21,256 nucleotides of DNA from Bacillota bacterium (GTDB taxonomy: Bacteria; Bacillota; Clostridia; Peptostreptococcales; Thermotaleaceae). Shown piece after piece: positions 3,341 through 21,256 of this stretch; positions within the stretch are counted from its first letter, which is position 1, and the number at the start of each line of letters is the position of its first letter. The DNA lies in contig JAMNXX010000220.1 of the NCBI GenBank assembly GCA_023623095.1, positions 1 to 21,256 on the forward strand, written 5' to 3'. The notes beneath the pieces were generated by a model that did not search any database, was not told the DNA's origin, and was given only the letters and a program-made list of their open reading frames with translations. Made by a program: the position numbers and the translations under genes.

Positions 3341-3958
3341 ATGGATATCGTGAATCGCTACAGAAAGATATCATTCACAGTTTTGGCGGTTGATAGCATA
3401 CCCTGTAGCTTGGTAGGGAATAAAATGATATTTTCCGCTTCGGGCGAGATAGAAACAGCTCCTTGGAAGCTACCATGGGCGATGCCTTGGATTGAAAGAG
3501 AGCTTAAAAAATTAGCAAAAGAGAAAACTGGTATTTCCGGTGTTGAGACGATGAAGGTCTACAATCCAGACGAACCGGATCAGTATCTCTTAGTAAGGAT
3601 AGAGAGATATATTGATTTGAAGATTGGAGAACTAATCGATCGGGCGGCGGAATTGTATCCGGATCAAGAAGCATTGATTCGCTACGATGGCCGTATCCGA
3701 TATCGTTATCGTGAACTTAAAAAGATATGCGATGAATTTGCAAAAGGCCTTCTTCGTCTCGGGATAAAAAAAGATGATAAGACAGCCATTTGGTCAGTGA
3801 ATTCGATAGAGGCTGTGATCGCGCAATTTGGAATAAGCCAGGTGGGATCGTTGGTCGTTCCGCTAAGCCCCTACGAAAAACGACTCAGGATGGAAAACTT
3901 TTTAAAACAGTCTGATACGAAAACATTGAGATGTTGTATGAGATTTGCCCTGAATTAA
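3341..3958 (+). pseudogene. Acyl-CoA ligase (AMP-forming), N-terminal part, frameshifted
   Basis: This is the N-terminal part of an AMP-forming acyl-CoA synthetase. ATG at 3341 follows AAGGGGA (3328-3334). The first 85 or so residues are a charged extension (EIETAPWKLPWAMPWIEREL, KVYNPDEPDQYLLV). Then comes the usual start of the adenylation domain: LIDRAAELYPDQEALI, FAKGLLRLGIKKDDKTAIWS and an NSIEAVIAQFGISQVGSLVVPL segment. The frame goes out of register after FLKQSDTKTL and stops 11 codons later with family-unlike sequence (RCCMRFALN). The rest of the enzyme continues in the next frame from about 3925. The expected stretch of roughly a dozen residues linking ..DTKTL to (I)EMLYEICPEL is missing. 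That points to a small deletion not divisible by three, not to a single-base indel. Confidence 0.8.
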
Positions 3959-5238
3959 AGACATGTAAGCCAGGAGCTTTATACTCAAAAAAGCTGCCTA
4001 TGTTGAGAAATGTTATCGTGGTCGGGGAAACAGATTATCCGGGGACGTACCGGTGGTCTGAAATTCTAGAGATGGGTGCACAATCAGAGGATGCGATTTT
4101 GGAAGAAAGAAAGAAGGAGTTGCATTATGACGATCCCATTCACATGATTTACACTTCTGGTACTACCGGAACGCCAAAAGGGGTTTTGCTCAGCCACGGA
4201 AATATCATTGAAAATGCACTGGCGATGTCGGAAAGGATGCAGCTGACGCCACAGGATAAGATGTGTGTTCAAGCCCCGATTTTTCACTGCTTTGGCTGTG
4301 TAGCCTGTACAGTTACTTCTGTCATCAGCGGCTGTTCCATGGTAATTATCGAGAGATTTCGCTCAGATCTGACGCTGAAGGTGATTGAACGGGAAAGGTG
4401 CACCGTGGCATCTGGGGTTCCGACGATGTTTTTAGGGTTTATAGAGGAAATGAAGAAAAATAAATTCGATGTTTCCTCCCTCCGCACCGGAATTATCGCA
4501 GGAGCCCCTTGTTCTTCAGAATTAGCCCATTCCGTCTCTGAAATTTTGGGGATGGATGAAATCATCATCGCTTATGGCCTTACAGAAACTTCGCCTTGCA
4601 TTACTGCGACAAAACCAGGGGATCCACTTGAATTTAAGGCAAATACTGTTGGGTGCACCATTCCTGGCGTAGAAATTAAAATTGTAGATCCGGTTACGCA
4701 TCAACCTGTAAAGCCGGGAGAGCAGGGTGAGATTTGTGTCAAAGGGTATAACGTGATGAAGGGCTATTACAAGATGCCGGAAGAGACAGCAAAAGTACTC
4801 GATCCGGATGGCTGGCTCCATACAGGGGATATTGGGATTTTGCGAGAAGATGGGTATTTAGAAATGGTATGCAGATGGAAAGACTTGATTATACGCGGGG
4901 GTGAAAATATTAGCCCGAAAGAAATTGAAGCGTATATTAGCAGCATTCCTGAAGTGGCTGAGGTTTATGTTGTGGGAGTACCGGATGCTTTCTATGGGGA
5001 AGAGATTGCTGCGTTTATCCGGCTTGAAAGTGGAAGCACTTTATCTGAAGACGATATCAAGTCCAAATGCAGGGGGAAGCTTGCTAGCAATAAAATACCC
5101 AAATACATCATTTTTACAGAGCGATTTCCTTTGTCCGGGTCAGGGAAAGTATTGAGGACATCGCTGCGCCGTATGGCTCTGGAAGCTCTGGAAATGAAAA
5201 TGAAGTCTGAACAAGAAGCTTCTACTTCTAAAGCATAA
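3931..5238 (+). pseudogene. Acyl-CoA ligase (AMP-forming), C-terminal part, frameshifted
   Basis: This is the remaining 435 codons of the CoA ligase. Numbering from the ATG at 3931, the ATP-binding loop YTSGTTGTPKG is at 74-84. It is followed by AYGLTETSPC, the DGWLHTGDIG adenylation motif, the hinge RWKDLIIRGGENISPKEIE and the C-terminal catalytic lysine region PLSGSGKVLRTSL. All core motifs are intact, so the inactivation looks recent or is an assembly error. The ATG at 3931 is internal and has no convincing ribosome binding site; the family alignment runs back to about 3925 (I-E-M-L-Y-E-I). The enzyme would convert a carboxylate, ATP and CoA to acyl-CoA, AMP and pyrophosphate. The substrate class (fatty, aromatic or enoate) is not decided. 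Stand-alone function without the N-terminal part is unlikely. Confidence 0.8.
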
Positions 5239-8151: not shown

Positions 8152-8943
8152 ATGCGAATCATTGTTTTAATGAAACAAGTTTTAAATAGCGAGCAGGTTG
8201 CCTTTCATCGAGATGATGATACGGGCACATATACGCTGATTCGGAACCCGATGGACTCGATCATGAACTATGATGATGGCAATGCTTTGGAGATGGCTTT
8301 GCGGTGGAAGGATCAAAACCCGGAGACACATATTACTGTGCTCAGCATGGGTCCACCTGGGGCAGAAGATATGCTTCGAGAATGTTTGGCCATCGGAGTG
8401 GATCAGGCGATTTTAGTAACGGATGAACGGATCAGCGGTGCGGATACAGTTGCAACAGCTACTTATCTGGCATCTTCCATAAACAAAATAGGGGAATATG
8501 ATCTTATTTTGGCGGGCTACCAGAGCCAAGACGGACGTACAGGACAAATAGGGCCGATGGTGGCAGAGAAATTAGGAATCCCCCAAATCACGTATGTCCG
8601 AACATTTTATGAAGAGGCAGGCAGATTGATAGGGATTAGAGAGTTGGGCGAGATGGATGAAAAAACAGCAATCGAAATGCCCTGTGTTGTCGTGATCTCA
8701 AAGCAAAAATACTGTCTCAGGGGGATGACCTTATCTGCAATTCGAAAAGCATTGAAAAAAGAAATCTGCATATGGAATTTGGAAGATATCTGTGGAAAAG
8801 CAGCAATATGTTTATCGCGAACAGCCACAATCGAAATAGAGCAAGTTGAAAAAAAGAGAAAAAACAAGATTGTAAAATTTGAAGACTGTCAAAATGGAAT
8901 TTTAGCGGATATCATTCGAGAAGTTCAGAAATTGGGCTGCTGA
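8152..8943 (+). CDS. etfB: Electron transfer flavoprotein beta subunit
   Basis: This is a 263-residue EtfB/FixA family protein, one half of the flavin-containing electron carrier that links acyl-CoA dehydrogenases to other redox partners. Seen here are the N-terminal MRIIVLMKQV, NPMDSIMNYDDGNALEMAL, the nucleotide-binding stretch LILAGYQSQDGRTGQIGPMVAEKLG, and a basic C-terminal helix (VEKKRKNKIVKF). AGGAG (8133-8137) lies about 14 bases before the ATG, a long spacing. No EtfA gene follows: the next 480 bases are non-coding. Its partner, and the acyl-CoA dehydrogenase or reductase it serves, must be elsewhere. The C-terminal quarter from about residue 195 reads as less typical than the rest. 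Whether it is a bifurcating type is not decided. Confidence 0.9.
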   Translation: MRIIVLMKQVLNSEQVAFHRDDDTGTYTLIRNPMDSIMNYDDGNALEMALRWKDQNPETHITVLSMGPPGAEDMLRECLAIGVDQAILVTDERISGADTVATATYLASSINKIGEYDLILAGYQSQDGRTGQIGPMVAEKLGIPQITYVRTFYEEAGRLIGIRELGEMDEKTAIEMPCVVVISKQKYCLRGMTLSAIRKALKKEICIWNLEDICGKAAICLSRTATIEIEQVEKKRKNKIVKFEDCQNGILADIIREVQKLGC

Positions 8944-9335: not shown

Positions 9336-9364
9336 TTGACAAATTTTTATCATAAAAATATAAT
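9336..9364 (+). promoter_or_regulatory. Perfect-consensus sigma-A promoter for the FMN-domain lipoprotein
   Basis: TTGACA (9336-9341), a 17-base spacer, then TATAAT (9359-9364): both hexamers and the spacing match the consensus exactly. The predicted transcript would start near 9371 and carry a leader of about 55 bases to the ribosome binding site AAAAAGGAGG (9411-9420). Strong constitutive expression is expected. Confidence 0.85.
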
Positions 9365-9426
9365 CAAATTAATCATTATGCTAGAATATTTCAAATTTCT
9401 AGGAGGATTGAAAAAGGAGGATGAAC

Positions 9427-10536
9427 ATGAAAAAAACGTTATCAATTTTTCTGGTACTTATCCTAGTCTTAGCGGTATTTGTCGGCTGTGCACAGCAGAC
9501 AGAAACAGAGCCGGAACCGGAAAATGGTGAAGTTGGAGAAGCTACATCAGAGATTGCAAAGATAGGTCTTGGACATATTACATCGATTGCCAAATCAAAG
9601 GATCTAGGAGTGGATGAAGAAGGAAATGAAGTACTTCCGGTAGGGCAAGTAGACACCGTTATTGCTGCTGTTGCTTTCGATCAAGACGGCAGAGTGGTAA
9701 AAGTCGCTATCGACAATGCGCAAACGAAAGTAGAGTTCAACAAAGATCTTACATTAAAATCTGATCCAAAGGCAGAGTACAAAACCAAAGTTGAATTAGG
9801 TGACGAATACGGAATGCGTAAGGCTTCCAGTATCGACAAAGAATGGTATCAACAAGCAGAAGCCCTTGGAGACTGGATGGTCGGCAAAACAGTTGATGAG
9901 ATTAAAGCAATGAAAGTGAAACAACGAGATGAAGCGCATCCAGCAGTACCGGATGTTCCTGAATTAACATCTCTTGTAACGATCACCGTTGAAGATTATA
10001 TCGCTGCAGTTGAAGAAGCATACAACAATGCCATCGATGTTGAAGCAGGTGCGGAAACATTGGGTCTTGGGACAAAGATATCTATCGCTAAATCTACTGG
10101 GCTAGGCACGGATGCAGAAGGCAAAGAAGTTCTTCCCCTTGCACAAGTAGATACAGTTATCGTTGCTACAGCATTTGATGGAGATGGCAAGGTTGCGGGC
10201 ACGATTATAGACAATGCGCAAACGAAAATCCAATTTGATAAGGAAGGAAAGGTTACTTCAGATAGAAATGCAGAATACAAAACCAAAGTTGAATTGGGCG
10301 ACGAATATGGTATGATTAAAGCGTCCAGTATCAATAAAGAATGGTATCAACAAGCACAAGCCCTTGGAGATTGGATGGTCGGCAAAACAGTTGATGAGAT
10401 TAAGGCTATGAAAGTGAAACAACGGGATGAAGCGCATCCAGCAGTACCGGATGTTCCTGAATTAACATCTCTTGTAACAATCACCGTTCAAGATTATATC
10501 GCTGCGGTTGAAGAAGCTTATGCAAACGCGAAATAA
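9427..10536 (+). CDS. Lipoprotein with two tandem FMN-binding-type domains
   Basis: This is a 369-residue secreted lipoprotein. The signal peptide MKKTLSIFLVLILVLAVFVG ends in a lipobox with C21 as the lipidated residue. Two copies of a domain of about 160 residues follow, offset by exactly 498 bases (166 codons): 9565-10033 and 10063-10531. Each has a beta core (QVDTVIAA..DGRVVKVAIDNAQTK), DEYGM.KASSI.KEWYQQA, GDWMVGKTVDEIKAMKVKQR, and a tail PDVPELTSLVTITV. The layout resembles the FMN_bind domain of NqrC, RnfG and Listeria PplA, which ApbE flavinylates on the Thr of D-x2-[ST]-G-A-T. Here the matching site reads E-L-T-S-L-V-T in both copies, so the Thr is kept but the context is altered. 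AAAAAGGAGG fits ATG 9427 better than ATG 9421. Two ApbE genes follow. It is probably the surface electron carrier of the locus; flavinylation is inferred. Confidence 0.8.
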   Translation: MKKTLSIFLVLILVLAVFVGCAQQTETEPEPENGEVGEATSEIAKIGLGHITSIAKSKDLGVDEEGNEVLPVGQVDTVIAAVAFDQDGRVVKVAIDNAQTKVEFNKDLTLKSDPKAEYKTKVELGDEYGMRKASSIDKEWYQQAEALGDWMVGKTVDEIKAMKVKQRDEAHPAVPDVPELTSLVTITVEDYIAAVEEAYNNAIDVEAGAETLGLGTKISIAKSTGLGTDAEGKEVLPLAQVDTVIVATAFDGDGKVAGTIIDNAQTKIQFDKEGKVTSDRNAEYKTKVELGDEYGMIKASSINKEWYQQAQALGDWMVGKTVDEIKAMKVKQRDEAHPAVPDVPELTSLVTITVQDYIAAVEEAYANAK

Positions 10537-10561
10537 TGCTCAACCGATACTTGAAGAACAC

Positions 10562-10591
10562 AAAACTCCCTCAGGTCAATGAGGGAGTTTT
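10562..10591 (+). terminator. Rho-independent terminator after the FMN-domain lipoprotein
   Basis: AAAACTCCCTC (10562-10572) pairs with GAGGGAGTTTT (10581-10591), an 11-pair stem with an 8-base loop; the T-rich side ends the stem. It likely limits read-through, so the lipoprotein would be made in excess over the ApbE enzymes. Confidence 0.75.
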
Positions 10592-10606
10592 GCATCAATA
10601 CTCCTC

Positions 10607-10635
10607 TTGCATAACAGTATTTTTTTTGCTAAGAT
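10607..10635 (+). promoter_or_regulatory. Extended -10 promoter directly before the first apbE
   Basis: TTGCAT (10607-10612), a 17-base spacer, then TAAGAT (10630-10635) with an extended TGC before it (10627-10629). The start of transcription would fall near 10642, only a couple of bases from the ATG at 10644. Confidence 0.55.
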
Positions 10636-10643
10636 AGATTGGG

Positions 10644-11747
10644 ATGATGCAGATGAAAAAATTAACAGCGTTTTGGATATCAGTTATCATGCTCGTGCTT
10701 TTCTTATCAAGCTGCCAAATAAAACCGGAGATGGAGTATCAAAAATATGAGGGCAGCTTTTTTGATACATTTGATACTTTAACACAAGTGGTTGCTTACA
10801 CCAAAAGCGAGCAGGAGTTTCACGATTATTTTGAGAAGATTCACACGCGCTTTCAAGAACTTCATAGACTGTATGATATCTATCATGATTATCCGGGAAT
10901 CAACAATATAAAGACGATCAACGACAATGCCGGGATCCAGCCGGTGAAAGTAGAAAAAGAAATTATCGATCTTATCTTGTTCAGTAAGGAATGGTACGAG
11001 CGCACGGACGGCCGTACAAATATCGCCATGGGATCGGTATTGCAGATATGGCATCAATATCGGGAGCAGGGACAATCCGAACCGCAAAATGCCAAACTTC
11101 CTTCACTGGATGCATTGCAAGAAGCTGCAAAACACACGGATATCGATCAAGTGCTCGTCGATACGGAAAATAGTACCGTATATCTTGCCGATAAACGGAT
11201 GCGCTTAGATGTCGGCGCTGTTGCAAAGGGCTTTGCGACAGAGATTGTAGCCCGGGAGATCATGGCAGAAGGGCTTGAGTCTGGGATTATCAGTGCAGGC
11301 GGGAATATTCGGGTGCTTGGAAAACCTCTTGATGGCATCCGTGAGCGCTGGGGAATCGGCATACAGGATCCGCAGCAGTTTATCTTGTCGGATGAACAAA
11401 AACTTTTGGATACGATTTTTGTAAACAATGCATCGGTGGTGAGCAGCGGAGATTATCAGAGGTATTATATCGTAGATGGAAAGAGGATTCATCATTTGAT
11501 CGATCCGAGCACGCTGATGCCTGCAGAATATTATCGTGCCGTGACGGTTGTAGCTGAACATTCAGGAGTTGCAGATTTTTTATCAAGTTCTTTGTTTTTG
11601 TTGCCGTATGAAGAAAGCCGTGCATTGGCGGACAGCATGGATGGGGTTGAAGCGATATGGGTCATGCAGGATGGAAGGCTGGAGGCGACAGATGGCATGA
11701 AAAAAATCATGAAAAGCAACGGGGCATCCGGTGCAAAATCGCAATGA
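10644..11747 (+). CDS. apbE: FAD:protein FMN transferase (ApbE family), lipoprotein, copy 1
   Basis: This is a 367-residue ApbE-type enzyme that transfers FMN from FAD onto a threonine of secreted flavoproteins, with Mg2+. A signal peptide leads to a lipobox FLSSC (C24 from ATG 10644), so it acts outside the cell, tethered to the membrane. Family motifs: FDTFDTLTQVVAY, GRTNIAMGSVLQIW, RLDVGAVAKGFATEI, SGIISAGGNIRVLG, VSSGDYQRYY and HHLIDPST. Two sites drift from the consensus: after HHLIDPST the usual TGxP reads LMPAEYY, and the metal-binding A-D-x-L-S-T reads ADFLSSSLF (Thr to Ser). No real Shine-Dalgarno precedes ATG 10644; ATG 10653 (MKKLTAFW) is an alternative start. It lies between the FMN-domain lipoprotein and a second apbE, and may have diverged to serve one acceptor. 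Confidence 0.9.
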   Translation: MMQMKKLTAFWISVIMLVLFLSSCQIKPEMEYQKYEGSFFDTFDTLTQVVAYTKSEQEFHDYFEKIHTRFQELHRLYDIYHDYPGINNIKTINDNAGIQPVKVEKEIIDLILFSKEWYERTDGRTNIAMGSVLQIWHQYREQGQSEPQNAKLPSLDALQEAAKHTDIDQVLVDTENSTVYLADKRMRLDVGAVAKGFATEIVAREIMAEGLESGIISAGGNIRVLGKPLDGIRERWGIGIQDPQQFILSDEQKLLDTIFVNNASVVSSGDYQRYYIVDGKRIHHLIDPSTLMPAEYYRAVTVVAEHSGVADFLSSSLFLLPYEESRALADSMDGVEAIWVMQDGRLEATDGMKKIMKSNGASGAKSQ

Positions 11748-11776
11748 CAGATCAGCCTATATGGAGGAATTAGAAA

Positions 11777-12823
11777 ATGATAAAAAAGAAAGCCATCCCT
11801 TTTTTTCTTTTATCTTTGATCATCTTTCTATCAGGCTGTACTGAATTAGGCCGACGAGGAGGAGATGAACCGGATACAAAGACAGAATTTGTTTTGGGAA
11901 CGGTCGTCACGGTACAGATATACGATCATGCATCCGAAGCGCTTTTTGATAAGATATTTGATAGGTTAAGAGAGATAGAAGAGAAGATGACGATCAACCA
12001 AGAAAACAGTGAAGTACTTGAAGTCAATAAAAATGCAGGCATTGACTTTGTTCATGTATCGGAAGACACATTTCATGTCATCCAAAGAGGAAAAATATTC
12101 TCTGAGCTTTCTCGAGGGAGATTTGATATATCCATAGGGCCCCTTGTAAAGCTGTGGAATATTGGAACAGAAGAAGCGAGAGTTCCTTCCCGGGAAGAAA
12201 TCGATCAGAAAAAGCAGTTAGTAGATTATCGAGATGTGCTTTTAAATGAATCTGAGAAAAGTGTCATGCTGAAAAAAGAAGGAATGTTCCTTGATCTTGG
12301 GGGGATTGCAAAAGGATTTGCAGCAGATGAAATCGTGAAGATTTTTGAAGAAAATCATGTAGAAAGCGGATTGATCAATGTGGGAGGAAATGTGTTTGCC
12401 CATGGAAACCGACTGGACGGAGCAGATTGGAGGATCGGCATACGGAATCCTTCTTCCTCTTCTTCCGCAGGAGATTATATTGGAATCATCAGTGTCTCCG
12501 ATAAAACCGTGGTGACTTCCGGGATCTATGAGCGGTATTTTGAGGAAGATGGAAAGCGGTATCATCACATATTAGATCCGGAAACAGGGTATCCTGTTGA
12601 AAATAATCTTGTAAGCGTGACCATCATCGGGGAGCATTCTATTGATGCAGATGCGCTTTCTACGGCTGTCTTTTCTCTAGGACTGGAGGAAGGGATGAAA
12701 CTCATACAAGAATTGGAAGATACAGAGGCGATATGGATTACAAAAGAAAATCAAGTGTACGTGACACCCGGGCTTCTCGATCACTTTGAACTGACCCATC
12801 CGCAATTTACACTGGTGAAGTAA
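11777..12823 (+). CDS. apbE: FAD:protein FMN transferase (ApbE family), lipoprotein, copy 2
   Basis: This is a 348-residue paralogue of the preceding gene with the same role. The signal peptide MIKKKAIPFFLLSLIIFLSG gives C21 in the lipobox. Motifs are closer to the family consensus than in copy 1: FVLGTVVTVQIYD, GRFDISIGPLVKLWNIG, FLDLGGIAKGFAADEI, SGLINVGGNVFAHG, WRIGIRNPSS, TVVTSGIYERYF, HHILDPETGYPVENN, and the Mg2+ site DADALSTAVFSLG. ATG 11777 follows GGAGG (11763-11767). It lies 29 bases after copy 1, so both are probably in one transcript that ends at the hairpin at 12842. It is the better candidate for the main flavinylating enzyme of the locus, equivalent to FmnB in Listeria. Confidence 0.93.
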   Translation: MIKKKAIPFFLLSLIIFLSGCTELGRRGGDEPDTKTEFVLGTVVTVQIYDHASEALFDKIFDRLREIEEKMTINQENSEVLEVNKNAGIDFVHVSEDTFHVIQRGKIFSELSRGRFDISIGPLVKLWNIGTEEARVPSREEIDQKKQLVDYRDVLLNESEKSVMLKKEGMFLDLGGIAKGFAADEIVKIFEENHVESGLINVGGNVFAHGNRLDGADWRIGIRNPSSSSSAGDYIGIISVSDKTVVTSGIYERYFEEDGKRYHHILDPETGYPVENNLVSVTIIGEHSIDADALSTAVFSLGLEEGMKLIQELEDTEAIWITKENQVYVTPGLLDHFELTHPQFTLVK

Positions 12824-12841
12824 ATTTTTATCTCTTTATAA

Positions 12842-12876
12842 AAAAAACTCACCCTGAAAAGGGTGAGTTTTTTATT
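12842..12876. terminator. Bidirectional terminator between apbE and the substrate-binding protein
   Basis: AAAAAACTCACCC (12842-12854) pairs with GGGTGAGTTTTTT (12861-12873). A T-run follows on the plus strand, and the A-run gives a T-run on the minus strand. It serves both convergent genes. Confidence 0.88.
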
Positions 12877-12878
12877 TT

Positions 12879-13823
12879 TTAAATGAGGCTATCATCTGCA
12901 AGTTCTTCTAGCGAATAATCACTGGTAGTTAATTCTTTGGAGCGAAGCCAATCCAATACGTCCTTGAAATCTTGTTCTTCAGGCATAGAAGCTTTTTGAT
13001 AGTCTGGAAGGGTCAGGGTATTTTTGATCGTTTCGGGGAATCCTGCTTCCGCGATCAAAACATCGATATAATTTTCTAAGGGCTCCTCTTTCAAATATTC
13101 AACCGCTCGATTATAAGCCCTGTAGCATGCTTGGATTTCCTGCCTTTTATTATCAATTGCGTCTTGAGAAAACAACATGATTCCGGGGTTTAGCCCCAAT
13201 TGTTCAGAGTTGATAAGCGGTTTGCCTCCTTCATCGATTGCAACGCTTGCCAAAGGTTCAGGTAATGTTGCCATATCGATCTTATTGTTTCGAAGCATTT
13301 CCAGTCGAGTAGGGATCTTTGGGATAATGACTTTTTCTGCAGAATGTTCCGGAACGTTTTCGAGCATCTTATCGGTTAGATATTCGATGATCGTGTTTTT
13401 AGAAATCCCGATTGTTCCTCCTTTAATCTCTGTAAGTTGAGAAATATCGGAGTTTTGTGCTGCGATCAGATGATAAAGTCCATCTGTCTTCGATGTGATT
13501 TTTACGTCCAATCCGCTGTCTTTTAAAAAGATTGCAGCGAGGATATCGGATACAACTCCGTCAATATTTCCCGTCTGAAAAGCGGCATCTCGATCGACAG
13601 CGCTTTTAAAATGTTCGATCTTGATTTTCAGCCCTTCTTCCTCGAAATAGCCATTATGCGCTGCGATAATAAAGGGAATAGAGTCTACATCCGGCAATAT
13701 GCCGATTGTAAGGGTTTGCGTGCTTTGTGAATCCGTTTCAGAGGGTTGTTTACTGGAGCAGCCGAATCCGGAAAATCCAAGCAGAACCACTAAAATGAAA
13801 ATGCATAGACGTTTTTTTGTCAT
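12879..13823 (-). CDS. ABC-type substrate-binding lipoprotein, NMT1/SsuA-like
   Basis: This is a 314-residue substrate-binding protein of the NitT/TauT (NMT1/THI5-like) type. The signal peptide ends in a lipobox FSGFGC, then a polar linker. The mature part opens with LTIGILPDVDSIPFIIAAHN and GYFEEEGLKIKIEHF, typical of this family, followed by AAFQTGNIDGVVSDILAAIF and the interlobe region MATLPEPLASVAI. The ribosome binding site GAGGTGAT (minus strand) precedes the ATG at 13823. No permease or ATPase gene is in the window, so it is an orphan here. It is the only reverse-strand gene and splits the flavin genes from the dehydrogenase. Ligands of the family include sulfonates, thiamine precursors and, for RibY, riboflavin. 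A flavin-related ligand would fit the context but nothing in the sequence proves it. Confidence 0.85.
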   Translation of the reverse strand: MTKKRLCIFILVVLLGFSGFGCSSKQPSETDSQSTQTLTIGILPDVDSIPFIIAAHNGYFEEEGLKIKIEHFKSAVDRDAAFQTGNIDGVVSDILAAIFLKDSGLDVKITSKTDGLYHLIAAQNSDISQLTEIKGGTIGISKNTIIEYLTDKMLENVPEHSAEKVIIPKIPTRLEMLRNNKIDMATLPEPLASVAIDEGGKPLINSEQLGLNPGIMLFSQDAIDNKRQEIQACYRAYNRAVEYLKEEPLENYIDVLIAEAGFPETIKNTLTLPDYQKASMPEEQDFKDVLDWLRSKELTTSDYSLEELADDSLI

Positions 13824-13859
13824 AAGATCACCTCAAATTATTATAAAAATTAACAAAAT

Positions 13860-13887
13860 ATTGTGAGAAACAAATCATTTTCACAAT
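13860..13887. promoter_or_regulatory. Dyad near the promoter of the substrate-binding protein gene
   Basis: ATTGTGAGAA (13860-13869) and TTTTCACAAT (13878-13887) form a 10-base inverted repeat with one wobble and an 8-base gap. On the minus strand a TATAAT hexamer lies at 13845-13840, and this dyad covers its -35 region, which has no consensus hexamer. That arrangement suits an operator or an activator site for the reverse gene. Confidence 0.45.
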
Positions 13888-14191
13888 TAAATAAATATAG
13901 ATATTTTCATTTCAGTATAACCAATCGGCAACAAAAATAGGAGGCTGAATTTTAATCAGAGGTTTTGCTTGAATGGTTTGTATTTTATTTGTACAAGATA
14001 ATATTAACATATTTCTTTATGAACAGAATTTACAAAAAGCTTTCTTAATGACCAAAACATAGATATTTTCAATAGATATGGTAAAATTTTAACAGAGGAA
14101 GTCGAAGAATTAAGAAAATTTTATCATTTTTGGGCAGAAATGAGATAAAGATTTTTCGATGAGATGGCGAAAAAGTAAGGGAGGAAAGAAG
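13888..14191. promoter_or_regulatory. Divergent intergenic region with a weak promoter for ndh2
   Basis: No gene is visible here. A 13-base direct repeat, ATAGATATTTTCA, occurs at 13897-13909 and 14059-14071. An extended -10 element, TGGTAAAAT (14079-14087), is the best promoter candidate for the dehydrogenase gene, but no good -35 hexamer matches it. Confidence 0.3.
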
Positions 14192-16165
14192 ATGGGAGAT
14201 AGAAAAAGGATTGTTATCCTCGGCGGAGGGTATGGAGGTGTGCTGACCGCCAAAAAGCTTGCCAGAAAGCTTAAAAAAGATCAGAATATCGAAATCATGC
14301 TTATCGACAAAAAACCCTATCATACGCTCCTCACGGAATTACATGAAGTAGCAGCAGGTAGGGTTGAAGAAGATTCCATTCGAATCGATTTAAAAAAGAT
14401 ATTCGCAAAGCGGAAAGTGAATGTAATACTTGATGAAATAACAGACATTGATTTTGAAGCACAAAGATTAACTTCAAAAGAAAATTCTTATCCCTATGAT
14501 TTTTTAGTAATAGGAGCCGGTTGTCAGCCGACCTATTGGGGAGTGAAAGGTGCAGCTGAGTATACGAAAAAACTATGGTCCTATGAAGATGCTGTTCATC
14601 TGAAAGAGCATATTCTTCATATGTTTCGAGAAGCTGCAAAGGAGCCCAATAAGGAAAAAAGAGAAAGGATGCTTAGCTTTGTCGTTGTAGGCGGTGGCTT
14701 CACAGGAGTTGAGATGATCGGAGAATTAGGAGAGTGGAAAGATAGGCTGTGCAAGGATTTTTATATAGATGAAAATGAAGTAAAGCTTTATGTAGTTGAT
14801 GCACTGCCCAAGATATTGCCCATTTTTCCGGATAATCTGGTCCAAAAGGCTGAAAAAAGGCTTAAAAAACTAGGGATTGAAATTATTACCAATGCAGGGA
14901 TTACCGAAGTAACGGAGAATTCTGTTACAATAGAGGGCAGAGGTTCTATCAGTACCAATACGGTTATTTGGGCAGCCGGGGTGGAAGGTGCTGATATTAT
15001 AGAAAAAATGGAATTAGAAAAGCAAGGAAGAAAAAGGCTTGTCACAAACGATAAGCTTCAGTCTGTAGACTATGAAAACGTTTATGTAGTGGGAGACAAT
15101 ATATTCTATATTCCGGAGGGGCAGGAAAAGCCTGTTCCACAAATGGTTGAAAATGCTGAACATTCAGCGGCACTCGTTGCCCATAATATTTATGTAGATG
15201 TAAAGGGCGGAGAAAAGAAATCGTATCGACCTGTTTTTCATGGCGCGATGGTATGTATCGGAGGGCGCTATGGAGTTGCTCATGTTGGTGTACCGGGACG
15301 ATTCTTTAGTTTTTCTGGATTCCCGGCGATGTTCATCAAACACTTTATCAACCTGGTATATTTTTTCCAAGTAGCTGGATTCAATAAATGTTGGTCTTAT
15401 CTATTGCATGAATTCTTCCGTATTAAAGACAATCGAAGCTTTGTCGGTGGACATTTGGCAAAAGCATCACCAAATTTCTGGTTGCTGCCTTTGAGGCTTT
15501 TTGTCGGATATAAGTGGTTAGAACAAGGGATCGCCAAATTGCCAAGCATCCTGGAAAACCCATCCAATATATTTTTGATCCCTCCACCAGCAGATGCAGG
15601 AAGCAGCGCTTCACCGGCGGTGGGTGAAAGTTCTAATGCGTTGTCCGGTGGGACTCAAGCAGTAGAAGCAGCCGCTGATACAGCATCCAGTGCAACTCAA
15701 GCAGCGCAAGCAGCAGCCGATACGGCATCCGCTGCAACTCCGGCAGCAGATGCAGCGGGAGAAGCTGCCAGCGCCTGGGGAGAAGCACTACCTGTACCTG
15801 ATTTTATTGAAGATATTGTAAATTGGTCCATGGATCTGTTTTTCTACACAGGAGATGGAGGCTATACAAAACTGGCTGAAATTTTCCAAGCAGGAATGAT
15901 ATTGGCAGAGATCGTCGTCGGATTGATGCTCATTGCCGGATTGTTTACAGCAGTTGCTTCAATCGTTTCGGTAGGAATGGGAATGATGATTTGGGCTTCA
16001 GGGATGGCGCCTCATGAGATGCTATGGTATCTGGCAGCAGGGATCGCTTTAATCGGTGGTTCAGGAAGTGCTTTTGGATTAGATTATTATGTACTGCCGT
16101 TTTTAAAGAAACGTTGGAATCGAATTGGACTCGTAAGAAAATCGTATCTGTATATTGATGAGTAA
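14192..16165 (+). CDS. ndh2: Type II NADH dehydrogenase fused to a DoxX-like membrane part
   Basis: This is a 657-residue protein. Residues 1 to about 400 are a two-dinucleotide-site flavoprotein of the NDH-2 type: FAD motif GGGYGG at 11-16, NADH-site motif VVVGGGFTGVEMIGELG, and the VVGDN segment near the C-terminal end. It passes electrons from NADH to quinone without pumping protons. The C-terminal part is membrane-bound: after KHFINLVYFFQVAG comes LLPLRLFVGYKWLEQGIAKL, then an Ala-rich linker (codons about 465-530), then helices including LAEIVVGLMLIAGLF and a last one ending GLDYYVLPFL. This matches DoxX split in its first outside loop. Listeria Ndh2 of the electron-transfer locus also carries an extra membrane domain. 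GGGAGG (14179-14184) sets ATG 14192; the frame is open from 14159. Confidence 0.88.
   Translation: MGDRKRIVILGGGYGGVLTAKKLARKLKKDQNIEIMLIDKKPYHTLLTELHEVAAGRVEEDSIRIDLKKIFAKRKVNVILDEITDIDFEAQRLTSKENSYPYDFLVIGAGCQPTYWGVKGAAEYTKKLWSYEDAVHLKEHILHMFREAAKEPNKEKRERMLSFVVVGGGFTGVEMIGELGEWKDRLCKDFYIDENEVKLYVVDALPKILPIFPDNLVQKAEKRLKKLGIEIITNAGITEVTENSVTIEGRGSISTNTVIWAAGVEGADIIEKMELEKQGRKRLVTNDKLQSVDYENVYVVGDNIFYIPEGQEKPVPQMVENAEHSAALVAHNIYVDVKGGEKKSYRPVFHGAMVCIGGRYGVAHVGVPGRFFSFSGFPAMFIKHFINLVYFFQVAGFNKCWSYLLHEFFRIKDNRSFVGGHLAKASPNFWLLPLRLFVGYKWLEQGIAKLPSILENPSNIFLIPPPADAGSSASPAVGESSNALSGGTQAVEAAADTASSATQAAQAAADTASAATPAADAAGEAASAWGEALPVPDFIEDIVNWSMDLFFYTGDGGYTKLAEIFQAGMILAEIVVGLMLIAGLFTAVASIVSVGMGMMIWASGMAPHEMLWYLAAGIALIGGSGSAFGLDYYVLPFLKKRWNRIGLVRKSYLYIDE
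15671..15796 (+). repeat. In-frame 14-residue repeat in the Ndh2 linker
   Basis: Within the dehydrogenase gene, three 42-base units run in tandem: codons for AADTASSATQAAQA (15671-15712), AADTASAATPAADA (15713-15754) and a degenerate AGEAASAWGEALPV (15755-15796). The Ala, Thr and Ser composition suggests a flexible or helical extracellular spacer. Confidence 0.75.
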
Positions 16166-16184
16166 TTTTGGCACATTGTTCCAT

Positions 16185-16230
16185 TGATACAAATGTCCTT
16201 TTAAAGAAATTTAGAAGGACATTTGTATCA
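16185..16230 (+). promoter_or_regulatory. Long perfect hairpin without T-run between ndh2 and the next gene
   Basis: TGATACAAATGTCCTT (16185-16200) pairs perfectly with AAGGACATTTGTATCA (16215-16230). With one wobble the stem extends to 21 pairs and closes on a GAAA loop. No T-run follows (GGAATGATTC), so this is not a standard terminator. It may be an RNA stability or processing element, or an operator, that tunes expression between the dehydrogenase and the quinone genes. Confidence 0.7.
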
Positions 16231-16272
16231 GGAATGATTCACCTTAACCGTTTCTCTGGGGGAGGGATAAGA

Positions 16273-16812
16273 ATGGAATATCCAATTCAAAAATATACGA
16301 TGAGTAGAGTAAAAAAAATCATATTGATTTCCCTCTTGGTATCGCAGGCGATGGTGCTTAGCTTTATCGAGAGCATGATCCCTTTGAACTTTAGCGTTCC
16401 GGGCGCAAAATTAGGGCTTGCAAATATCGTTACGTTAACATCTCTTTATTTATTTTCGTTTCGGGAAACATTGCTGATCATTGTGCTTCGAACGGTGATG
16501 ACGGCATTTATAAGCGGTTCATTTTCCATGTTTTTATACAGCATATCGGGCGCTTTGCTCAGTTTCTTGATGATGTATCTGTTAATTCATTTTGCTTCTG
16601 AAAAAGTAAGTACGGTCGGAGTCAGTATTGTAGGAGCGATCTTTCATAATTTAGGACAATTGGCAATGGCTGCTCTAATCATTCAAAATATAAAGATTGT
16701 TTTGTATCTGCCTTTTTTAATGGTAGCCGGCATTGCAACTGGATTTATTGTTGGCGCGAGTGTAAAATATTTAATGAAATATCTAATGAGAGTCAAATAC
16801 ATTACTTTATAA
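16273..16812 (+). CDS. Gx transporter / heptaprenyl diphosphate synthase component I-like membrane protein
   Basis: This is a 179-residue integral membrane protein with five to six hydrophobic segments. It belongs to the family named heptaprenyl diphosphate synthase component I, more recently Gx transporter family, which resembles substrate-capturing S components of ECF transporters. Family marks: IESMIPLNFSVPGAKLGLAN early, then FRETLLIIVLRTVMTAFISG, VSIVGAIFHNLGQLAMAAL, and a final glycine-rich helix (VAGIATGFIVGASV). GGGAGGG (16260-16266) fixes ATG 16273; the frame is open from 16168. It is 16 bases upstream of the polyprenyl synthase. In the Listeria electron-transfer locus an S-component-type protein (FmnA) supplies flavin outside the cell, and the position here fits such a role. 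Its naming as a synthase subunit rests on neighbourhood only. Confidence 0.8.
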   Translation: MEYPIQKYTMSRVKKIILISLLVSQAMVLSFIESMIPLNFSVPGAKLGLANIVTLTSLYLFSFRETLLIIVLRTVMTAFISGSFSMFLYSISGALLSFLMMYLLIHFASEKVSTVGVSIVGAIFHNLGQLAMAALIIQNIKIVLYLPFLMVAGIATGFIVGASVKYLMKYLMRVKYITL

Positions 16813-16828
16813 CGGCAAAGGTGATGAG

Positions 16829-17800
16829 ATGAATAAATTATGGGGGAACTATCCGGAATTAACTGAAGAATTACTCCAGGTGAAGCAGATCATCAAAAAG
16901 AACATCCGCTCGAGAGAAAAATATCTTCAAGAAGCAATCAGCCCAATGATCGACAGCGGAGGAAAGATGCTCCGGCCTGCATTTGTTTTATTGGCAGGGA
17001 GATTTGGCAAATATGATCCAAAACGCATGCGCCAACTGGCGGCTGCAATTGAAATGCTTCATGTGGCTACACTCGTACACGATGATATTTTAGACGATTC
17101 GAAGTTCAGAAGAGGGATAGAGACGGTTCAATATCGATATGGAAAGGAATATGCAGTCTATATCGGAGATTTTTTATTTTGCCAATGTTTTTGTATGCTT
17201 TCAGAATATGAATACACGATGGAAAGTTTAAAAAAGATTTCTAAATCCATATCGAGCATCTGTTTAGGAGAGATCCGCCAGTATCATTTTCGGTATATAA
17301 AAGATATCAATTTTAGGAATTATCTTCGGATCATATCCGGCAAAACAGCCGCTTTGTTTGCAATCAGTTTTTTTGCAGGAGCGAAAGAAGGAAAATGCAG
17401 CGATAAAATCTGCAATCTGCTTACAAAAGTGGGTTATCATATGGGAATCGCTTTTCAAATTATCGATGATATTTTGGACTACAACGGGGATATGGATACC
17501 TTAGGAAAAAGTGTACAAAGTGATTTAAAAAAGGGATATTATACGCTGCCGTTGATTTATGCACTTGAAGCAGATAGGGAAAATCGTATTTCAAACATAT
17601 TGGAAAAACCCGTATTGACGGAGGAGGATATTGCGGAAGTAGGCCGCCTTGTTCATGCATACGGAGGGTGCAAAAAAGCCGGTCAGATGGCAGCACGCTA
17701 TACGCAGAAAGCTTTTTCTTATATCGAGCGATTGCCGGAGAACGGGAGCAAAAAAATAATTCGGGAAACGGCCTCAAGGCTATTAGAGCGAGATTATTAA
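16829..17800 (+). CDS. hepT: Polyprenyl diphosphate synthase (heptaprenyl synthase component II-like)
   Basis: This is a 323-residue trans-isoprenyl diphosphate synthase. It extends an allylic diphosphate with isopentenyl diphosphate to make the side chain of a quinone. Both aspartate-rich motifs are intact: LVHDDILDDSKFRRG (DDILD at 85-89) and FQIIDDILDYNG (D213, D214, D217). SGGKMLRPAFVLL holds the substrate-binding GGK..RP motif. The residues before the first Asp-rich motif (IEMLHVATLVH) lack bulky aromatics close to the motif, as expected for long-chain enzymes. AAAGGTGATGAG (16817-16828) serves as ribosome binding site. It corresponds to DmkB in the Listeria locus. The UbiD-type decarboxylase starts 30 bases downstream. 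Confidence 0.9.
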   Translation: MNKLWGNYPELTEELLQVKQIIKKNIRSREKYLQEAISPMIDSGGKMLRPAFVLLAGRFGKYDPKRMRQLAAAIEMLHVATLVHDDILDDSKFRRGIETVQYRYGKEYAVYIGDFLFCQCFCMLSEYEYTMESLKKISKSISSICLGEIRQYHFRYIKDINFRNYLRIISGKTAALFAISFFAGAKEGKCSDKICNLLTKVGYHMGIAFQIIDDILDYNGDMDTLGKSVQSDLKKGYYTLPLIYALEADRENRISNILEKPVLTEEDIAEVGRLVHAYGGCKKAGQMAARYTQKAFSYIERLPENGSKKIIRETASRLLERDY

Positions 17801-17830
17801 TCGGTATTGCGACGAGAAGGAGATGGTTTT

Positions 17831-19279
17831 TTGGCTTATAAAGATTTGCAGGATTTTATGGAACACTTGAGGAATAAAAAACTTTTGGATGAGATCTCGG
17901 TTGAAGTGGATAGTCATTTGGAGATAACGGAAATTACAGACAGGGTTTCCAAACAATATGGGAATGCACTTTTGTTCAAGAACGTGAAAAATTCTCCTTA
18001 CCCTGTTCTGATCAATACATTTGGAACCTATGAAAGACTCAATATGAGTTTGGGGGTCGAGCGGCTCGATGAAATTGCAGAAACGATTTTAGATTTTATG
18101 GATATGGCCAATTATGCTACGCTTTTCAATCAGATCAAATCCGTTCCGAAACTAGCGAGATTGGCAAAAATTTTCCCTAAAAAAGTAAAAAAGGCAGCTT
18201 GTCAGGAGGTTGTAGAAGAACCGGATCTGGATAAGCTGCCTATTTTGCAATGTTGGCCAAAAGACGGCGGAAGATATATTACGCTGCCCCTTGTGATTAC
18301 AAAGGATCCGGAGACAAATCAGCAGAATATGGGGATGTATCGCTTGCAGGTTTATGACAAGAAGACAACAGGAATGCATTGGCATTTGCACAAAGACGGC
18401 AGGGAGATTTATGAGAAATATAAAAAACGAGGCTTATCGAGAATGCCTGTATCGGTTGCATTGGGCGGGGATCCGGCTACGATTTATTCGGCTACGGCAC
18501 CGCTGCCCAAAATGATCGATGAAATGATCTTTGCAGGGTTTTTGAGAAAAGCTCCTGTTGAAATCGTGCAGTGTATTACAAATGACTTGTACGTTCCTGC
18601 GAATGCGGAATTTATATTGGAAGGATATGTGGATTTAGATGAAATGCGGCTTGAAGGACCCTTTGGAGATCATACCGGATATTATTCTTTGCAGGATTGG
18701 TATCCCGTTTTTCATATCGAAAAAATAACGAGGAAAAAAAATCCGGTCTATCCAACGACGATCGTAGGAAAACCGCCGATGGAAGACTGTTATTTAGGAA
18801 AGGCGACGGAGCGAATTTTTCTTCCGCTGATTCAGATCCAATGTCCGGAAATCGTCGATATGAATTTTCCGCTGGAAGGCGTCTTTCATAATTGCGTGAT
18901 CGTATCGATAAAAAAAGCTTATCCCAAACATGCCCATAAGGTGATGCACGCCCTTTGGGGGATGGGGCAGATGATGTACACAAAAATGATCATCGTTGTG
19001 GATGAAAATGTGGATCCGCACGACTTATCCACTGTTGCTTGGAAAGTATTTAATAATATTGATGCCAAAAGGGATTTGGTGATCTCAGAGGGACCGTTGG
19101 ATGCGCTGGATCATGCTTCCAACACGCCCCACTATGGACATCGATTGGGAATCGATGCCACCAAAAAATGGGCAAGTGAAGGATATACCCGAACATGGCC
19201 GGATGATATTGAAATGACAGAAGAGATCAAAAATCTTGTAGACAGAAGGTGGAAGGAGTATGGGATTCAAAAAGATTAA
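17831..19279 (+). CDS. UbiD family prenylated-FMN decarboxylase (menaquinone pathway)
   Basis: This is a 482-residue UbiD-type decarboxylase that uses prenylated FMN. Cofactor and metal site: NMGMYRLQVYDKKTTGMHWH. Catalytic Glu/Arg region: EFILEGYVDLDEMRLEGPFG followed by DHTGYYS. The length fits the family. The frame is open from a TTG at 17807, but AGAAGGAGA (17815-17823) points to TTG 17831, giving MAYKDLQDFMEHL, the usual UbiD opening. Next to UbiA-like and UbiX-like genes, it most likely removes the carboxyl group of a prenylated 1,4-dihydroxy-6-naphthoate in the futalosine route to menaquinone. UbiD homologues also act on aromatic acids, but the operon favours quinone synthesis. Its stop overlaps the next gene by 20 bases. 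Confidence 0.9.
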   Translation: MAYKDLQDFMEHLRNKKLLDEISVEVDSHLEITEITDRVSKQYGNALLFKNVKNSPYPVLINTFGTYERLNMSLGVERLDEIAETILDFMDMANYATLFNQIKSVPKLARLAKIFPKKVKKAACQEVVEEPDLDKLPILQCWPKDGGRYITLPLVITKDPETNQQNMGMYRLQVYDKKTTGMHWHLHKDGREIYEKYKKRGLSRMPVSVALGGDPATIYSATAPLPKMIDEMIFAGFLRKAPVEIVQCITNDLYVPANAEFILEGYVDLDEMRLEGPFGDHTGYYSLQDWYPVFHIEKITRKKNPVYPTTIVGKPPMEDCYLGKATERIFLPLIQIQCPEIVDMNFPLEGVFHNCVIVSIKKAYPKHAHKVMHALWGMGQMMYTKMIIVVDENVDPHDLSTVAWKVFNNIDAKRDLVISEGPLDALDHASNTPHYGHRLGIDATKKWASEGYTRTWPDDIEMTEEIKNLVDRRWKEYGIQKD

Positions 19280-20114
19280 AACTTATGGAGAACTGGTCAT
19301 GTTCTCACATACATTGTTCTCTCTTCCTTTTGCACTGATTTCAATGATCTGGGCAGCCCAAGGGCTCCCGTCAGCGCGTACAATCTTCTGGATTTTGGTT
19401 GCACTGATTGGAGCACGAAATGGAGCCAATGCTTTAAATCGGTGGATCGATTGCGATATAGACAAAAAAAATCCGAGAACCAAGAACCGTCATATGCCCA
19501 GAGGGATAGTGAGCCGTTGGGAAGTATTTGGGCTTGTTCTGTTTTGTTTTGGTATTTTTATTTATGCGGCCTACCGTTTGAATTCACTTTGTTTCCGATT
19601 AACTCCTGTTGCGCTTTTTCTCTTTATTATCTACTCATATACGAAACGATTTACATGGGCATGTCATCTTGTGTTGGGGATTGCCTGTGCAGGAGCGCCT
19701 GTGGGAGCTTGGTTTGCTGTAACAGGAAAATTTTCGATTATTCCTTTTATTTTAGGAACGGTAGTGATGCTGTGGGTTGCAGGATTTGATATTATTTATG
19801 GCACACAGGATATTGAGTTTGACAGAAAAAATCATTTGTTTTCGATACCGGCTATTTTCGGTTTAGAGAAAGCGCTGTGGATCTCTCGGGCATTCCATTT
19901 CATGATGATTTTCCTGCTGATTGGGCTGTATTTTATCATGGATATGGGATGGCTGTATCTGTTGGGGGTTTTTATCAGCGCTGTGTTGTTAGGAATTGAA
20001 CATTATATGGTATCCCCTTCTAATCAGAAAAAGATGAATCTCGCTTCCTACCATATCAATCAGATTGTGAGTGTTTTAATTTTTGTGTTTACCAGCGTAG
20101 ACTTTTTTTCCTGA
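19260..20114 (+). CDS. UbiA family prenyltransferase (MqnP/DmkA-like)
   Basis: This is a 284-residue membrane prenyltransferase that joins a polyprenyl diphosphate to an aromatic acceptor. The first Asp-rich motif is NRWIDCDIDKKNPRT (N60, R61, D64, D68) and the second is DIIYGTQDIEFD (D178, Y181, D185, D189). About eight or nine hydrophobic segments are visible, and the length is normal. ATG 19260 overlaps the end of ubiD by 20 bases, so the two are translationally coupled; the upstream AAGGTGGAAGGAG supplies the ribosome binding site. Its opening (KKIKTYGELVMFSHTLFSLPFAL) is typical of the MqnP/4-hydroxybenzoate group, not of MenA. It fits the DmkA role in making the demethylmenaquinone that receives electrons from Ndh2. 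Confidence 0.88.
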   Translation: MGFKKIKTYGELVMFSHTLFSLPFALISMIWAAQGLPSARTIFWILVALIGARNGANALNRWIDCDIDKKNPRTKNRHMPRGIVSRWEVFGLVLFCFGIFIYAAYRLNSLCFRLTPVALFLFIIYSYTKRFTWACHLVLGIACAGAPVGAWFAVTGKFSIIPFILGTVVMLWVAGFDIIYGTQDIEFDRKNHLFSIPAIFGLEKALWISRAFHFMMIFLLIGLYFIMDMGWLYLLGVFISAVLLGIEHYMVSPSNQKKMNLASYHINQIVSVLIFVFTSVDFFS

Positions 20115-20270
20115 ATGGGAGATTGGTAGAGGCGGGGAAGATCTCTCCTGCCGAAACTCATAGAAGGCACGTTTAGGAAGTAACTGTGTGAGTGGATTTT
20201 GCTTAAGACAACCGTAGACGGAGTTATCCTTTAAGAATAATGGTAAGGGCGAGCTGCATACTATCAATCT
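20115..20270. other. Intergenic stretch downstream of ubiA, no gene seen
   Basis: No convincing gene or terminator lies here. A short GGGAGAT/ATCTCTCC pairing at about 20117-20150 is weak. GGGCGAGC occurs at 20248-20255 and recurs in the hairpin element at 20275-20282, which suggests the repeat-like DNA starts before 20271. Confidence 0.4.
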
Positions 20271-20329
20271 GTAGGGGCGAGCTTTGCTCGCCCAAAGATA
20301 AGGAACGGGCGGTCAAAGGCCGTCCCTAC
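20271..20329. repeat. 59-base double-hairpin intergenic repeat with GTAGGG/CCCTAC ends
   Basis: The element starts with GTAGGG and ends with CCCTAC as inverted termini. Hairpin 1 is GGGCGAGC, loop TTT, GCTCGCCC (20275-20293). Hairpin 2 is GGGCGGTC, loop AAA, GGCCGTCC, with two wobbles (20307-20325). Its G+C is far above the surroundings. From memory, short GTAGGGGCG-type palindromes are dispersed between genes in many Firmicutes, so this is probably one copy of a genome-wide repeat. Confidence 0.65.
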
Positions 20330-20357
20330 GTTAGTGTCTCAGAAGTTGCAGTGCGCA

Positions 20358-20572
20358 GAAAGATTCACGGAAAGCAGCAGATGTGACTGATAAAAGATTC
20401 GCTAAGAAAAGCCTCTGAAAAATTTCTAAAAATCCGTGAAGACAGCAGGATGCTGTTTTAGCTGCCTTTGGACAGGACGTCCAGTAGGCAGCGGTAGGAT
20501 TTTTAGAAATTTTGAGGAGCTGCATTTCTTGAATCTTTTATTGGAATCAGATGTGCTTTCCGTGAATCTTTC
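20358..20572. repeat. 215-base nested inverted repeat between ubiA and ubiX
   Basis: Three perfect inverted blocks are nested in the same order: 19 bp (20358-20376 with 20554-20572), 11 bp (20390-20400 with 20531-20541) and 17 bp (20419-20435 with 20497-20513), with diverged stretches between them. The middle holds two more hairpins: ACAGCA-GGA-TGCTGT (20442-20456), and AGCTGCC..GGCAGC (20460-20492) enclosing TGGAC..GTCCA. No reading frame spans it. It could be a miniature inverted-repeat element without transposase, or a structured RNA in the operon transcript. Confidence 0.7.
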
Positions 20573-20705
20573 ATTCGAACTACTAGCTGTACATCTAGCC
20601 GCGCATTTTATATATATTGCGTAAGATCTGTTTTACGTGAAACGGTGAGAACGAGCCGATTGTTGTTCTATCGGATTTCATTATCAATTTTAAGAGGTGA
20701 AAAAA

Positions 20706-21256
20706 TTGTCAAGGTATATCGTCGGAATAACAGGAGCCAGCGGAAGCATTTATGGGGTTCGCCTTGTAGAGGAATTGCTAAAGAAAGGCCATGAAGTTTA
20801 TTTTGTGATTACTGAACATGGAAGAGAAGTCCTCGAATACGAACTGGAAATCAGCTTTGAGACGTGGATAAAAGACTGCGAGGAAAGGTGGAAAAAGATT
20901 ACTTTCTGTCCCAATGATGATCTCTTTTCTGAAATCGCCAGCGGTTCATTCCCGACTGATGGAATGATCATCGCCCCCTGCTCCATGGGTACCCTTGCCA
21001 AACTGAGCAGCGGGATTGCAGATAATTTACTTGTCCGGGCAGCCGATGTCATTATCAAAGAAAAAAGGCAATTGATTTTGGTTCCGAGGGAAACGCCGCT
21101 CAGTCCAATCCATCTAAGAAATATGCTTTTCTTAAGCGAGCTGAATGTAACGATATTGCCGCCTATGCCTGCCTTTTACCACAGGCCGAAAACATTGGAG
21201 GAAGTTGTTCAGATATCGATAGGAAAAATTCTTTCCATGTTGAATATAAAAAGTGA
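20706..21256 (+). CDS. ubiX: UbiX-type flavin prenyltransferase, 3' end cut by the window
   Basis: This enzyme joins dimethylallyl phosphate to FMN to make the prenylated-FMN cofactor of UbiD. It starts with TTG at 20706 after GAGGTGA (20694-20700): MSRYIVGITGASGSIYGVRL, the classic UbiX opening with the FMN-binding GASG. Further on are APCSMGTLAKLSSGIADNL, LVPRETPLSPIHLRNM and PPMPAFYHRPKTLEE, all typical of the family. About 183 codons are present. The final TGA of the window is not in this frame: the last bases read AAA-AGT-GA, so the gene continues past the edge, as expected since UbiX usually has another 5-10 residues. It lies 591 bases after ubiA, behind a repeat cluster, in the same direction as the UbiD it serves. 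With no ATG start and no end in the window, automated calling could miss it. Confidence 0.92.
   Translation, partial: MSRYIVGITGASGSIYGVRLVEELLKKGHEVYFVITEHGREVLEYELEISFETWIKDCEERWKKITFCPNDDLFSEIASGSFPTDGMIIAPCSMGTLAKLSSGIADNLLVRAADVIIKEKRQLILVPRETPLSPIHLRNMLFLSELNVTILPPMPAFYHRPKTLEEVVQISIGKILSMLNIKS

Follow-up and report, generated by a model that had tools for sequence, protein, structure and literature searches.

The 21,256-nt stretch of DNA analysed here (the window; contig JAMNXX010000220.1 of the Bacillota assembly GCA_023623095.1) carries a variant of the Listeria-type locus for flavin-based extracellular electron transfer (EET), in a new arrangement. Two points look new: a divergent flavin-attachment motif in a two-domain lipoprotein (LIP) that comes with its own clade of the flavin mononucleotide (FMN) transferase ApbE, and a cassette that ties an ATP-binding cassette (ABC) importer to the quinone block UbiD, UbiA and UbiX. 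Taken as a whole, we lean, with some reserve, towards a modular EET locus in which NDH2 would pass electrons through demethylmenaquinone to LIP flavinylated by ApbE1, the quinone being salvaged via an importer with the binding protein SBP. The assembly comprises 1.73 Mb in 332 contigs and is 76% complete, and genes reported absent from the source genome are absent from this assembled 76%. Because the window is an entire contig (C86), the locus is truncated at position 21256. The family of the source genome (f1) includes Geosporobacter ferrireducens (G011); NCBI places Geosporobacter in Thermotaleaceae, and the name of the Geosporobacter species of this family refers to iron reduction. The genes of the locus in the window are the following.

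9421..10536, plus strand: LIP, two-domain lipoprotein in the PplA position, predicted flavin carrier with predicted acceptors Thr187 and Thr353 (motif, profile match)
10644..11747, plus strand: ApbE1, FMN transferase of the LIP-linked clade (PF02424 E 1.5e-64; clade of 20, support 100/100)
11777..12823, plus strand: ApbE2, FMN transferase on the PplA-linked side of the tree (PF02424 E 3.8e-95; tree)
12879..13823, minus strand: SBP, lipoprotein binding protein of an ABC importer (NMT1/SsuA families; neighbour of UbiD in relatives; fold)
14159..16165, plus strand: NDH2, type II NADH:quinone oxidoreductase with a C-terminal DoxX/DoxD-like membrane part (Pyr_redox_2 E 4.1e-40; NDH-2 structures)
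16168..16812, plus strand: EetB-family subunit for export of flavin adenine dinucleotide (FAD) (PF07456 E 4.8e-48)
16829..17800, plus strand: HepT/DmkB-like polyprenyl diphosphate synthase (PF00348; TIGR02748 259.5 bits, under the cut-off of 456.55)
17807..19279, plus strand: UbiD, MqnL-type decarboxylase, above the MqnL equivalog cut-off (TIGR03701 661.7 bits, cut-off 495.9)
19260..20114, plus strand: UbiA, MqnP-like prenyltransferase (TIGR01475 297.5 bits, cut-off 180.8; scores to the MqnP models under their cut-offs)
20697..21256, plus strand: UbiX, prenyl-FMN synthase for UbiD, reaching the contig end (TIGR00421 200.8 bits, cut-off 108.9)

An EET-type NDH2, ApbE and a polyprenyl synthase, a combination that we take as a mark of the Listeria-type locus, share one locus. 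The first-pass annotation had listed the two-domain lipoprotein, two ApbE enzymes, an NDH-2 with a C-terminal membrane part, a polyprenyl synthase, UbiD, UbiA and UbiX, and all were confirmed; SBP, which also belongs to the locus, was not in that list. It had further reported neither EetA nor EetB. For EetA this stands: a profile search for PF07009, which we take to be its family, found no match in the window or in the rest of the assembled genome, and one in 138 of the 148 relatives searched (the order sample). For EetB it does not, as the protein then called S-component-like matches PF07456, which serves as the eetB family in PMC9973259 (Rivera-Lugo et al. 2023); its likely start, judged from the sequence and from relatives of 179–180 aa, is the ATG at 16273. 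According to the same paper, EetB of Listeria, the counterpart of the protein in the window, binds and exports FAD and is required for PplA flavinylation, and a clean eetA deletion leaves EET normal. Since EetB is present and Listeria EET is normal without eetA, the reason given for an open electron route, the want of both proteins, fails. The DoxX-type fusion, described as a peculiarity of this NDH-2, is indeed a membrane tail (DoxD E 0.0012, under the Pfam cut-off), but a DoxX/DoxD-like tail was found at E <= 0.01 in three of the four other EET-type NDH-2 proteins tested and is therefore not particular to this locus. By eye, an inverted repeat can be seen between NDH2 and EetB at about 16186–16231, with arms like GATACAAATGTCCTT / AAGGACATTTGTATC; it occupies the spot where one relative (G012) has EetA.

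Compared with the Listeria-type locus (Ndh2, PplA, FmnB, EetA, EetB, FmnA, DmkA and DmkB), the window shares NDH2, ApbE, the EetB family, the polyprenyl synthase, a UbiA-superfamily prenyltransferase and the position of a two-domain flavin lipoprotein. It differs in that LIP replaces PplA, a second ApbE is present, EetA is missing, and UbiD-UbiA-UbiX plus an ABC importer stand in place of DmkA. No FmnA (ECF-T) was found among the Pfam matches of the window, to which that search was confined.

Gene order is conserved among relatives, two of which (G067 and G012) share ApbE, NDH2, EetB, HepT, UbiD, UbiA and UbiX with the window. In G067 (locus L103) the order is a PplA-like gene, ApbE2, SBP on the minus strand, NDH2, EetB, HepT, UbiD, UbiA and UbiX, followed by an ABC ATPase, an ABC permease, a small FMN_bind lipoprotein, a histidine kinase and a response regulator. 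In G012 (locus L104) SBP and ApbE2, both on the minus strand, come ahead of NDH2, EetA, EetB, HepT, UbiD, UbiA and UbiX, and the locus ends on the same series of ATPase, permease, small FMN_bind protein, kinase and regulator; no PplA-like gene is in view there. The EetA gene of G067 lies elsewhere in its genome, none being found between NDH2 and EetB. Here "PplA-like" denotes a lipoprotein by its position beside NDH2/ApbE2; that of G067 scores 26.1 bits against PF04205 (cut-off 22), and its place is occupied in the window by the LIP-ApbE1 pair. Another contig of the source genome, C283, carries the ATPase, permease, small FMN_bind protein, kinase and regulator at 64, 65, 50, 64 and 57% identity, respectively, to the reference proteins. 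Judging by synteny with G067 and G012, the locus very probably continues from C86 onto C283.

Such loci are modular. Five other loci combine the same LIP/ApbE pair with a MenA-like UbiA, HepT and NDH2. Fervidicella metallireducens (L053) and others have NDH2-HepT together with a MenA-like UbiA, and G067, G012, G023 and G034 have it with UbiD-UbiA. In Oceanirhabdus seepicola (L060) an EET-type NDH2-HepT precedes MenF, MenD and MenH, and quinone synthesis genes lie inside the locus. As the neighbourhood is conserved in G067, G012 and the five LIP loci, the first-pass reading of a flavin-based EET locus holds. Its reason for an open electron route does not, and what looks new lies elsewhere, in the flavin motif with its ApbE clade and in the import cassette.

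LIP had been described as an FMN-domain protein with an altered flavin site. Pfam does not detect the domain, LIP giving no match to PF04205 (FMN_bind). Kinship with PplA-like proteins is nevertheless evident from profile comparison: the LIP domains matched PplA-like domains with 94.5–96.1% probability (E 3.7e-9 to 7.6e-8), versus < 2% for all four control pairs, and two printed profile alignments place the LIP Thr opposite the Ser/Thr of the PplA-like motif S-G-V-S. A homologue search found 1191 relatives at E <= 1e-3, and proteins of Geosporobacter, Alkaliphilus, Clostridium and Paenibacillus are among the 120 listed. We aligned 144 sequences, 26 from loci and 118 of the 120 listed relatives. 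All 144 have Thr or Ser at the predicted acceptor position (139+5 at one site, 136+8 at the other), and the predicted site is mostly S-[L/S/T]-V-[T/S], replacing the canonical [S/T]GA[S/T]. Divergent members of the family carry AGCT (L052), TSAT (L047) or GSVT (L050), and that of L047 matches FMN_bind at E 0.0039, under the cut-off. A structure model of LIP reached a predicted local distance difference test (pLDDT) score of 90.7; fold searches with it gave no clear match. By sequence, then, LIP is a divergent relative of the PplA-like acceptor, and it would be flavinylated at the new motif, on the predicted residues Thr187 and Thr353. With PF04205 flavinylated lipoproteins it has in common two domains, the C-terminal half of each domain, and the acceptor hydroxyl; the motif, the missing Pfam match and the ApbE clade set it apart.

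The pairing of LIP with ApbE1 is recurrent. For the 27 LIP genes in the fetched loci and the window, an ApbE1-type gene lies within 300 bases in 19 cases and within 6 kb in 24, with none in view for the remaining 3. Among the 36 ApbE proteins placed in a tree (20 LIP-linked, 9 PplA-linked, 6 without a visible acceptor, and window ApbE2), all 20 LIP-linked enzymes fall on one side of a single branch (support 100/100) and the other 16 on the other; none of 500 label shuffles gave a value as low. ApbE2 is sister to the ApbE of G020, which adjoins a PplA-like gene. Since a search of the assembled source genome yielded no PplA-like protein, ApbE2 may instead act on the small FMN_bind protein and on RnfG. 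In three relatives (L035, L036 and L042) a single ApbE1 stands between two LIP copies in a stretch of about 12 kb, and ABC and binding-protein genes recur alongside.

We now turn to the quinone block. MqnP, MqnL and MqnM are described as late steps of the futalosine pathway (PMC4746308), and the window likewise holds an MqnL-type UbiD together with UbiA and UbiX homologues; it differs in the tie to an ABC importer and in that no carrier in this order has MqnE over the cut-off. UbiD of this type (E <= 1e-80) occurs in 14 of the 148 genomes, the source genome included, and importer genes adjoin it in 13 (the source genome being counted via C283), the exception being G099, where UbiD lies at a contig edge. 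In G023 and G034 the ATPase and permease are near UbiD with no SBP seen, and in G125 SBP and the permease are, with no ATPase called. In eight relatives the importer/UbiD linkage occurs apart from NDH2. We scored MqnE (TIGR03700) and MenB in 19 genomes, the 14 with UbiD plus G011, G013, G020, G059 and G096. MqnE was over the cut-off in none, and MenB only in G013, which is without UbiD; neither was therefore over the cut-off in any of the 14 UbiD genomes. In 14 control genomes, MqnE was over the cut-off in 2 and MenB in 7. PF02621 (MqnA/D) had no match in the source genome.

SBP itself is over the Pfam cut-off for NMT1 and scores 89.6 bits to the SsuA model TIGR01728, under the subfamily cut-off of 163.5. 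Its fold is common to MqnD/MqnA and to PqqT, the pyrroloquinoline quinone (PQQ)-binding protein of an ABC importer that acts in PQQ uptake. SBP is 18% identical to PqqT and differs from it in being linked to UbiD-UbiA.

The association was also followed through a phylum sample of 398 genomes. TIGR03701 UbiD was found at E <= 1e-100 in 136 of them (106 over the cut-off) and MqnE at E <= 1e-60 in 102 (97 over the cut-off); 95 genomes had both, and 41, the source genome included, had UbiD without MqnE. We read the surroundings of UbiD for about 9 kb on each side, where the contig allowed, in the 40 other MqnE-lacking genomes and in 40 of the 95 MqnE-bearing ones. An SBP homologue lay near UbiD in 19/40 of the former (16 with both ABC subunits) versus 2/40 of the latter. 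Nine more MqnE-bearing genomes, all of family f35 and picked on account of the positive result for G160, were read over shorter distances; SBP was present in 7, raising the MqnE-bearing total to 9/49. By genome, p was 2e-5 without the targeted nine and 0.005 with them. As related genomes are not independent, the count by family is the fairer measure: SBP was near UbiD in 13 of 21 MqnE-lacking families versus 2 of 20 with MqnE (Fisher p 9e-4).

We propose that the importer takes up a soluble quinone precursor, probably 1,4-dihydroxy-6-naphthoate, with SBP as the putative binder. This compound is the candidate because it is a futalosine intermediate that could be completed by UbiA, UbiD and UbiX alone (PMC4746308). 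In the mechanism that we propose, SBP with the C283 ATPase and permease would import a soluble naphthoate, most likely this one, UbiA would attach the HepT product to it, and the prenylated naphthoate would be decarboxylated by UbiD using the UbiX cofactor. NDH2 would move electrons from NADH to the resulting demethylmenaquinone, EetB would export the FAD used by ApbE, and ApbE1 would flavinylate LIP on Thr187 and Thr353; flavinylated LIP would then accept electrons from demethylmenaquinol and reduce acceptors outside the cell. A different route, NosR-ApbE, has been proposed in Clostridium (PMC13134045).

Several observations weigh against this reading. The SBP fold also includes sulfonate, nitrate, bicarbonate and thiamine-precursor binders, and 21 of the 40 MqnE-lacking genomes had no SBP within the stretch read. 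A relative of SBP (62%) occurs in Oceanirhabdus seepicola, whose EET locus has the Men genes. The importer might carry flavin, a thiamine precursor, sulfonate or another common substrate, all covered by this fold and by the NMT1 and SsuA families, and lie near UbiD by accident. We find this rather doubtful, since none of those substrates explains the tie to MqnE loss seen in the family count, and the link to UbiD persists in the eight relatives where NDH2 is elsewhere. Other points would fit an ordinary flavin-based EET locus with de novo quinone, its Mqn genes unassembled or undetected variants and the importer otherwise used in quinone synthesis. The assembly is incomplete; genus g112 has both MqnE and the cassette; and PF02621 weakly passes its low cut-off in four UbiD genomes (G012, G067, G125 and G129). 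However, UbiD relatives of 96–100% completeness likewise have MqnE and MenB under the cut-off, and the PF02621 match in G067 is a lipoprotein that scores higher to a phosphonate-binding family, so that we regard de novo synthesis as unlikely.

On the side of electron transfer, LIP is matched at E <= 1e-30 in 23 genomes, of which only 7 also contain an NDH2 relative at E <= 1e-60 (30/148 overall), and LIP must therefore often have another electron donor. In one genome (G144) Rnf genes lie next to the LIP-ApbE1 pair, and in Clostridia EetB is frequently found beside Rnf (PMC9973259). These points would suit a locus whose electrons go to an enzyme in the periplasm or membrane, or one that supports the flavinylation of Rnf, instead of a locus for an acceptor outside the cell. 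Set against this are the presence of NDH2 and the quinone block in the same locus, the lack of an extracellular reductase among the open reading frames of the window, and the parallel locus, with a PplA-like gene, of Fervidicella metallireducens, reported to reduce iron (PMC4007986); we consider it quite unlikely. That LIP is not flavinylated at all, its site having decayed and the conserved Thr being structural, seems very unlikely to us: the canonical glycine is replaced in nearly all aligned LIP sequences, Pfam is silent and the fold search uninformative, but the hydroxyl is invariant at both sites, the ApbE clade is dedicated, and AGCT, TSAT and GSVT form motif intermediates.

Other features of the window are noted briefly. 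An AMP-dependent synthetase/CoA ligase apparently lies in two overlapping plus-strand frames (3341–3958 and 3931–5238), possibly through a frameshift or assembly error. An EtfB gene without an adjacent EtfA (8152–8943, plus strand) lies 3' of CoA-ligase and CoA-transferase genes. Between UbiA and UbiX, the Rfam RNA motif TwoAYGGAY is found at 20403–20528 on the plus strand (51.3 bits, cut-off 43); it occurred in none of the 8 related loci searched.

PMC4746308 notes that importers for soluble quinone precursors are to be expected and still to be annotated, a passage of PMC5738691 states that no menaquinone or 1,4-dihydroxy-2-naphthoate (DHNA) transporter is described, and PMC10746273 that the quinone uptake pathways of L. 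plantarum await identification. Among the matches listed in our literature search, with most subscription journals outside it, no paper links an ABC importer to MqnP, MqnL or MqnM. We tentatively suggest that with this importer a system for taking up a soluble precursor of menaquinone, namely 1,4-dihydroxy-6-naphthoate, may have been identified for the first time. It occurs in MqnE-lacking genomes of at least 13 Bacillota families and would here feed an EET chain with an S-x-V-T carrier and its own ApbE clade. The flavin-attachment motif used in PMC8238504 is [S/T]GA[S/T], and that paper notes that sites outside known domains have probably been missed; the LIP acceptor would broaden the motif by which flavinylated proteins are counted, and two ApbE clades occur side by side in this locus as a natural pair. 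If the reading is true, quinone salvage would be built into respiratory and EET loci, and so widespread a candidate importer would make quinone cross-feeding directly testable and provide a genomic mark of quinone auxotrophs.

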